Positions 2,882 to 4,116 of a stretch of 44,656 nucleotides of DNA are shown here, one piece after another. Each line of letters begins with the position of its first letter. Positions within the stretch are counted from its first letter, which is position 1. The position numbers were made by a program, and so were the translations under genes. Under the pieces are notes generated by a model that had not been told where the DNA came from, did not search any database, and worked only from the letters and a program-made list of their open reading frames with translations. Source of the DNA: an uncultured Pelagibacteraceae bacterium (GTDB lineage: Bacteria; Pseudomonadota; Alphaproteobacteria; Pelagibacterales; Pelagibacteraceae); NCBI GenBank assembly GCA_902624185.1, contig CACNWU010000006.1, forward strand, positions 1 through 44,656. The letters run 5' to 3'.

Positions 2882-3997
2882 TTACTCTGAATATGATTTA
2901 TCTAAAAAGTTTTTAAGAGCTTTTAAAAAATCTGGAACATCTAATAAGAAAGAATCATGCCCTTTGTCTGACTCTATTTCTACAAAACCTACATCTGCTC
3001 CAATAGCATTTAAAGCAATGACTATATCTTTATTTTCTTGTGTGGGATAAAGCCAATCTGAAGTAAAAGATATTACAAAAAATTTTGCTTTTGTATCTTT
3101 GAAAGCATCTGATAAATTTCCATTATATTGTTTTACCAAATCAAAATAATCCATAGCCCTAGTAATATATAGATAGCTATTAGCATCAAATCGATCAACA
3201 AAAACAGATCCTTGATATCTTAAGTAGCTTTCTATTTGAAAGTCAGCATCAAAACCAAATTTAAGATCATCACGTTCTTGAAGTTTTCTACCAAATTTTT
3301 CTTGAAGACCCTTCTTTGATAAATAGGTAATATGTGCTGCCATTCTTGCAACTGCCAAACCTTTATTTGGAATAATTTTTTTTGAGGAATATTCACCATT
3401 TGACCAATTGTGATCAGCAGTTATAGCCTGTCTTCCAAGTTCATTTAAAGCAATATTTTGAGCTGAATGACTTGAAGTACACGCAATGGGTACAGCTGTT
3501 TTTGTTTTATCTGGAAAGTTGCTTACAAACTGTAGGACTTGCATTCCGCCCATTGAGCCACCAACAACTGAAAATAGTTTTTTTATTCCAAAATGATCTA
3601 ACAAATTTACTTGAGCGTTAACAATATCATTTATCGTAATGACAGGAAAATCCGTACCATAAATTTTTTTTGTTTCGGGATTTTCATGGCTTGGACCAAA
3701 TGAACCCATACATCCCCCAATTACATTTGCACATATTACAAAATATTTGTTTGTATTTATCGATTTATCTGGACCTACCGCATAAGACCACCATCCATCC
3801 TTATTAGTCACTGGGTTTAATCCTGTAACAAATTGATCTCCAGTTAAAGCATGACAAACCAGAATTGCGTTATCTTTCTTTTCATTTAGAGAACCATAAG
3901 TCTCATATGCTAGGGGGTAATCATTAATAGTTAGACCACAATCTAACTTTAAAGGTTTCTTAACAATTAGTAATTTAATATTTTCTCTATTATTCAT
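2882..3997 (-). CDS. metX: Homoserine O-acyltransferase MetX
   Basis: MetX (371 aa) is an alpha/beta-hydrolase-fold enzyme that acylates homoserine, the entry step to methionine. Whether the acyl donor is acetyl-CoA or succinyl-CoA cannot be decided from what I can see. The nucleophile elbow GGSMGG is at residues 146-151 (Ser148). The other expected catalytic residues are the Asp in FTSDWLYP and the His in KGHDSFLLD. Other family motifs are CHALTGD and GGCMGSFGPS. The 5' leader holds a SAM-II-type riboswitch directly after a strong promoter, so feedback by S-adenosylmethionine is likely. No clear Shine-Dalgarno sequence precedes the ATG. Confidence 0.96.
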   Translation of the reverse strand: MNNRENIKLLIVKKPLKLDCGLTINDYPLAYETYGSLNEKKDNAILVCHALTGDQFVTGLNPVTNKDGWWSYAVGPDKSINTNKYFVICANVIGGCMGSFGPSHENPETKKIYGTDFPVITINDIVNAQVNLLDHFGIKKLFSVVGGSMGGMQVLQFVSNFPDKTKTAVPIACTSSHSAQNIALNELGRQAITADHNWSNGEYSSKKIIPNKGLAVARMAAHITYLSKKGLQEKFGRKLQERDDLKFGFDADFQIESYLRYQGSVFVDRFDANSYLYITRAMDYFDLVKQYNGNLSDAFKDTKAKFFVISFTSDWLYPTQENKDIVIALNAIGADVGFVEIESDKGHDSFLLDVPDFLKALKNFLDKSYSE

Positions 3998-4012
3998 AAC
4001 AAAGGTCTAAAA

Positions 4013-4070
4013 ACTGAATTGTGAGAAAAAAACTTTTTTAGCGGTTTTTTTAAAGCGCTCGCAATTCAGT
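4013..4070 (-). promoter_or_regulatory. Inverted repeat competing with the SAM-II aptamer (expression platform)
   Basis: Read on the minus strand, the aptamer segment ACTGAATTGCGAG (4058-4070) is complementary at 12 of 13 positions to the downstream segment CTCACAATTCAGT (4013-4025), with one C/A mismatch. The upstream arm contains pseudoknot-loop nucleotides and most of the 3' strand of aptamer stem P1, so this hairpin and the ligand-bound aptamer cannot coexist. The downstream arm runs straight into a T5 tract, then the metX ATG 15 bases beyond the arm. It could be an intrinsic terminator or a translational switch; the direction of control is not settled by sequence. Confidence 0.65.
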
Positions 4071-4082
4071 TAAATCAGCGCA
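4033..4082 (-). promoter_or_regulatory. SAM-II riboswitch aptamer upstream of metX
   Basis: The minus strand reads GCGCTGATTTAAC, then TTGCGAGCGC, then GCTAAAAAAG after an A-rich linker. This closely follows the SAM-II (metA motif) class, an H-type pseudoknot that binds S-adenosylmethionine and is known upstream of metA/metX in alphaproteobacteria. Stem P1 is GCGCU paired with AGCGC. The conserved GAUUUAAC loop and the 3' GCUAAAAA strand of the pseudoknot are both present. The predicted transcription start lies at the 5' edge of the aptamer. Confidence 0.9.
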
Positions 4083-4087
4083 TAAAT

Positions 4088-4116
4088 TTTGTACAAGATG
4101 TTATTTAGTATGTCAA
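4088..4116 (-). promoter_or_regulatory. Sigma-70-type promoter for metX-metW
   Basis: Perfect -35 box TTGACA (4111-4116), a 17-base spacer and TACAAA (4088-4093) on the minus strand. Transcription should begin near 4081, so the RNA opens almost exactly with the SAM-II aptamer. This is among the closest matches to consensus in the window. Confidence 0.75.

Follow-up and report, generated by a model that had tools for sequence, protein, structure and literature searches.

The window, a 44,656-nt stretch of DNA from an uncultured Pelagibacteraceae bacterium, carries on its minus strand, in this order, a promoter, a SAM-II aptamer (approximately 4081-4031), a U7 tract, a strand complementary to the aptamer, and metX, which starts at 3997. 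The regulated gene metX (2882-3997) encodes a homoserine O-acetyltransferase (NF001209, 515.6 bits against a cut-off of 331) and is followed by a second minus-strand gene, metW (2282-2878; TIGR02081, 232.5 bits against a cut-off of 189.5), which is probably in the same operon. An earlier note on this DNA had proposed a near-consensus promoter, and this was confirmed on the minus strand; the -35 element TTGACA (4116-4111), which is invariant in 109/109 same-genus leaders and lies 34-36 nt before P1, is separated by 17 nt from the -10 element TACAAA (4093-4088), which is variable among relatives. Within the aptamer, P1 is formed by two GCGC strands (5' strand at 4078-4081, 3' strand at 4055-4058), the 5' strand of P2 together with the ligand-binding segment (AACUGAAUUGC) occupies 4061-4071, and the 3' strand of P2 (GCUAAAAAAGUU, 4031-4042) closes the pseudoknot; the U7 tract (4026-4032) follows directly 3' of P2 and shares its last two bases.

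Assignment to SAM-II, already made in the earlier note, is supported by the P1 stem, the H-type pseudoknot P2, and the letters UGAUUUA, UUGC and GCUAAA in the window RNA, as well as by a placement that fits this class, just 3' of a promoter and upstream of a methionine/SAM gene. A search with RF00521 matched the aptamer on metX-metW at 30.5 bits (E 2.8e-5), under the gathering score of 36, and RF01726 matched it at 31.9 bits, under a gathering score of 44. The RF00521 gathering score, a curation cut-off and not a biological feature, does not discriminate here because it is passed by 0 of 247 genomes of the family (152 genomes have a match with E <= 0.001) and because the locus L120, which contains the crystallised RNA unaltered, reaches only 34.1 bits. 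As no match in these 247 genomes reaches the gathering score, default annotation will overlook SAM-II throughout Pelagibacteraceae. SAM-V was considered instead and rejected (RF01826, only 18.9 of 41 bits, E 0.97). Judged by its sequence, the window RNA is a genuine SAM-II riboswitch that is predicted to bind SAM. Its P2 3' strand contains no Shine-Dalgarno sequence and lies more than 30 nt before the AUG, so that the arrangement is not of the direct-occlusion type. A SAM-II riboswitch on metX (SAR11_0217) was already known in Candidatus Pelagibacter ubique HTCC1062 (PMC2704228), with the same aptamer, gene and position as in the window; the accessible text of that account describes the aptamer only, without arms or a missing terminator.

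Downstream of the aptamer, the strand 4025-4013 pairs at 12 of 13 positions with 4070-4058, as the earlier note had claimed, with C4061.A4022 as the mismatch (minimum free energy, MFE, -22.2 kcal/mol; z -3.1). Leaders of metX from the same genus were compared in two sets (109 parsed first and 40 more later), and 120 distinct leaders entered the pairing counts, which represent non-independent events because the leaders are related to one another. The strand, whose absence from relatives the earlier note had named as grounds for giving up its proposal, is kept throughout the genus. Its conserved part, here termed arm 1, is CUC-A-CAAUUCA (4015-4025), with UGAAUUG-C-GAG (4068-4058) as partner, that is, UGAAUUG within the P2 5' strand segment and GAG at 4060-4058; by contrast, the last bases CAGU of the strand as originally drawn are specific to the window, where an extension GUUU (4011-4014) that is not found in relatives pairs through G4014-U4012 with C4069-A4071. 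Genome G176, which we take to be Ca. P. ubique HTCC1062, belongs to the window's genus and has the same arm.

In the genus, GCGCUGAUUUA-N-CUGAAUUGCGAGCGC, the core of the aptamer, is near-invariant, and so is CUC-(A/U/C)-CAAUUC downstream of it. Ten of the 11 positions of arm 1 are standard-paired with the aptamer in 96-100% of the 120 distinct leaders, and the position that faces the invariant C of the aptamer is unpaired in 119 of them (A 91, U 22, C 6, G 1). The predicted energy of the core:arm duplex is -9.1 to -11.4 kcal/mol in all 120 distinct leaders, and downstream pairing of the aptamer core has a mean probability of 0.68 in real leaders, as opposed to 0.04 once the sequence 3' of the aptamer is shuffled. 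Variants with insertions or deletions retain the pairing, in L012 and L271 by a bulge and in L082 and L099 with the mismatched base deleted; in L092 the mismatch is shifted by one base and pairing is likewise kept. The aptamer bases that face arm 1 are invariant in the 120 same-genus leaders except for the base(s) before CUG, whereas the same bases vary in sister genera, which lack the arm. With regard to the covariation between arm and aptamer that the earlier note had suggested checking, pairing is thus kept through indels, but with columns this constant there is little classical two-sided covariation (conservation of 0.96 for the arms versus 0.999 for the aptamer). The case for arm 1 as a pairing partner, read from aligned leaders, rests on conservation, on pairing kept through indels, and on the contrast with sister genera. 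A tract of U7-9 between P2 and arm 1, which the earlier note did not mention, is present in 104 of 109 relatives and is predicted to pair with the A-rich J segment when the RNA adopts its SAM-free fold.

A second anti-aptamer strand, arm 2, also absent from the earlier note, consists of UYRGY and lies between arm 1 and the AUG, in a tail that varies elsewhere; it is complementary to the P1 5' strand GCGCUGA (GCGC with U4077-A4075) and ends 5-10 nt before the AUG genus-wide. In the window, arm 2 is UUAG (4007-4010), is paired with CUGA (4078-4075) in the MFE structure, and ends 9 nt before the AUG. The pairing score of arm 2 was 9.82 as compared to 6.54 for shuffled tails, and targets that had been reversed or complemented scored at chance level; of 99 distinct tails, 55 paired strongly to GCUGA and 4-7 did so when the target was reversed or complemented. 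The result held in 23 further tails, collected once the hypothesis was in place (10.39 versus 6.75 for shuffled tails). The letters opposite G, U and G of GCUGA switch between C/U, A/G and C/U, respectively, which are changes tolerated by G.U pairing. Arm 2 is missing from some subclades of the genus. The predicted pairing shows that two mutually exclusive folds are possible, the SAM-II pseudoknot (P1 plus P2) and a two-armed anti-aptamer structure in which arm 1 would pair with UGAAUUG-C-GAG and arm 2 with GCGCUGA, together engaging the whole 5' half of the aptamer.

SAM-II riboswitches are most often associated with terminators according to the literature (PMC1273637, PMC2258182), contrary to the earlier note, which had described the class as usually a compact translational switch. 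A scan for terminator-like sites found none in the window region and none in 150 leaders of the genus (0/150), while the same scan detected a site in 58/58 sister leaders, which served as positive control; three outgroup leaders (L302-L304), in which CCGCC...GGCGG and a T-run are visible, were missed by the scan because their loop is long. Two further candidates were rejected, namely a small hairpin (CUUA/UAAG) before U8 as a terminator stem, whose two sides were seen by eye not to co-vary, and the survival of an ancestral antiterminator, in which UUUAGC of the tail would pair with GCUAAA and for which there was no enrichment (mean p 0.47).

In other genera of Pelagibacteraceae (g2, g3, g4, g6 and g8), the metX aptamer is followed by GCCCAGUUUAGCUGGGC-U8-9, which nearly touches the AUG, and the loop of this terminator contains UUUAGCU, a complement of AGCUAAA in the aptamer. 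We infer that these sister leaders would act as ordinary SAM-OFF attenuators, in which free GCUAAA serves as an antiterminator that SAM removes. In a MetX tree, the window's genus forms one clade (100/99) that is sister to g3/g6/g8 and lies within terminator-bearing lineages, and an outgroup family also has SAM-II and a terminator; the terminator is therefore ancestral, and, on the tree and the leader alignments, terminator loss and arm gain map to the stem of the window's genus. Since the sisters have a terminator and 0 of 150 leaders in the window's genus do, the expression platform was swapped within one family, providing a natural experiment on expression-platform evolution in which the same gene and aptamer are found in close genera with either a terminator or a bipartite anti-aptamer. 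The literature accessible to the search yielded no description of a two-armed anti-aptamer or of such a swap; what is new is the two-armed platform and the swap, and what was already known is the riboswitch class and its metX location in this lineage.

The crystallised SAM-II RNA (52 nt, Sargasso Sea metagenome metX, 2QWY; sequence from PMC8494917) shares aptamer class, gene and family with the window. The earlier note had suggested that the two represent the same lineage, which is correct at the family level; the genus differs, as the exact 52-mer occurs in two g4 contigs (L208 and L212), where it has a canonical terminator and no arm. All 38 matching g4 loci (L181-L218) run on into the GCCCAGUUUAGCUGGGC-U9 terminator and the metX AUG, and in the leader of the crystallised RNA, AGCUAAA of the aptamer finds its complement in the terminator loop. 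A review labels the crystallised RNA a direct-occlusion translational switch (PMC10907184); in its native context, however, this textbook model of a translational SAM-II RNA is immediately followed by an intrinsic terminator, the loop of which is able to pair with the ligand-binding GCUAAA, and this calls the translational label into question. An AUG just after the GGGG of the crystallised RNA shares the reading frame of metX through the terminator, but some loci lack it.

Among other known systems, the tandem SAM-II/SAM-V riboswitch on bhmT in SAR11 resembles the window in having a downstream strand complementary to the aptamer, and its linker has been reported to block SAM binding (PMC9481103, PMC11508383). 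In tandem SAM-II leaders, CGCUUUAGC in the terminator loop is complementary to GCUAAAGCG; this competitor thus belongs to an intrinsic terminator and is directed at the 3' strand of P2, whereas the arms in the window target the 5' half of the aptamer. The SAM-II riboswitches on metZ and metA of Sinorhizobium meliloti likewise have platforms beyond simple Shine-Dalgarno occlusion, a terminator for metZ and a Shine-Dalgarno sequence in P2 plus a terminator for metA, with no anti-aptamer arms reported in the accessible text of that study (PMC9373788).

For the window's genus we favor, at a probability of about 0.5, a SAM-II switch with a genus-specific two-armed platform that is read post-transcriptionally and in which SAM turns metX off. 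SAM would stabilize the pseudoknot and thereby release the arms and the U7-9 tract; as transcription of the U tract precedes that of the arms and no terminator is left, the output would be post-transcriptional, with readout by the ribosome at the metX start or by mRNA decay. In SAM-free mRNA, the arms and the U tract would be locked away and the AUG free, while with SAM the freed U-rich strand might pair with the A-rich metX start, or single-stranded RNA might be exposed to nucleases. The constant mismatch opposite the aptamer C may keep the anti-aptamer structure at a stability that SAM can overcome. The OFF direction is preferred because all relatives have a terminator platform that presumably acts as an OFF switch, and because of the feedback logic of the pathway. 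According to the accessible part of a report on sulfur-limited HTCC1062, mRNA levels of bhmT, metY and mmuM rose 34-, 7- and 6-fold, respectively, and metX was outside the set of 23 genes with a change of at least 6-fold (PMC5069961); that metX, unlike the terminator-bearing bhmT, is not among these strongly changed mRNAs is consistent with no transcriptional attenuation and does not indicate a direction.

Predicted structure and sequence are ambiguous as to polarity. Opening of positions -6 to +9 at the AUG was harder with the aptamer formed (+1.3 kcal/mol; 53 versus 6 leaders), whereas opening of -20 to +12, the full 30S footprint, was harder in the SAM-free fold (+1.7 kcal/mol; 58 versus 17 leaders), with energies that exclude the pseudoknot and SAM in both cases; modelled accessibility hence points to SAM = OFF with the former and to SAM = ON with the latter, flipping with the footprint. 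A start sequestor, U8CUC/AUUCA with AUGAAU...GAGAAAA, gave 1.66 kcal/mol, better than the 0.45 kcal/mol of random gene starts but no better than the 1.96 kcal/mol of sister metX starts; it is not specifically selected, and the window does not have it (5.29 versus 5.38 kcal/mol). The cost of opening the full footprint, the position of arm 2 with its narrow spacing before the AUG, and the lack of both a compensating Shine-Dalgarno sequence and a conserved start sequestor would all suit a reversed polarity, in which the SAM-free anti-aptamer helix blocks the ribosome and the SAM-bound pseudoknot exposes the start and a U-rich standby site, turning metX on. We consider this unlikely, as it runs contrary to feedback logic for a methionine biosynthesis gene, as the terminator platforms of all close relatives agree with SAM-OFF, and as AUG-proximal bases open more easily in the SAM-free fold. 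It is similarly doubtful that the platform swap on the branch to the Ca. P. ubique genus yielded a SAM-activated SAM-II switch; if true, one of the ocean's most abundant bacterial groups would have a SAM-ON SAM-II switch.

Retention of the ancestral transcriptional logic would be explained if the SAM-bound pseudoknot itself served as terminator stem, with the arms folding later and locking read-through mRNA in a SAM-blind state. It would fit that 104 of 109 leaders have U7-9 immediately 3' of P2, longer than the U5-7 of most sister leaders; this reading is nevertheless quite improbable, since the arms, being located downstream of the U tract, could have no effect on that decision, yet are conserved at nearly the level of the aptamer, since P2 is A/U-rich here, and since in the accessible part of the report metX falls outside the strongly changed mRNAs of sulfur-limited cells (PMC5069961). 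Incidental RNA pairing of a DNA operator or other element is very improbable; the two halves do form a near-palindromic DNA repeat with a constant mismatch, but indel variants preserve RNA pairing and not register or symmetry, and arm 2 varies at G.U-tolerant positions. Hardly credible is the possibility raised in the earlier note that the arm hairpin followed by T5 halts transcription without SAM; the window does have a stable hairpin before a few T, but no terminator-like site occurs in 150 leaders of the genus, relatives have 0 to 5 T after the arm, so that T5 is window-specific and not part of an intrinsic terminator, and these bases are mostly used in pairing (in the MFE structure the stem includes U4013 and U4012, and the P1 5' strand is the partner of U4010-U4009). 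The dilemma that the note derived from it, a permissive anti-repressor or an unusual polarity, persists in a new form as the question of direction.

Other SAM-II elements of the family include metX leaders (L299, L300 and L301, in g12, g9 and g7, respectively) whose shortened aptamer has GAGG or AAGG at its end; weak A/T-rich hairpins stand right before the AUG, and these leaders apparently represent a third platform type. In g5, a SAM-II aptamer with a short terminator precedes a MetW-like gene, not metX (L149, L150 and L151). At L169 (G012:C1:419804-420428), SAM-II precedes a bhmT-like gene, seemingly without the G+C-rich terminator usual in tandem SAM-II/SAM-V leaders. Finally, a SAM-II-like element (27.8 bits with RF00521 for L170) was found in the window's genus (L170, L171, L172 and L173), in g3 (L161 and L164) and in g4 (L139), before a gene for a conserved protein of 55-61 amino acids with no significant Pfam family; GGAGG or GGAG stands directly after GCUAAA and a few nt before the ATG, and this group looks like a candidate direct Shine-Dalgarno-occlusion switch.
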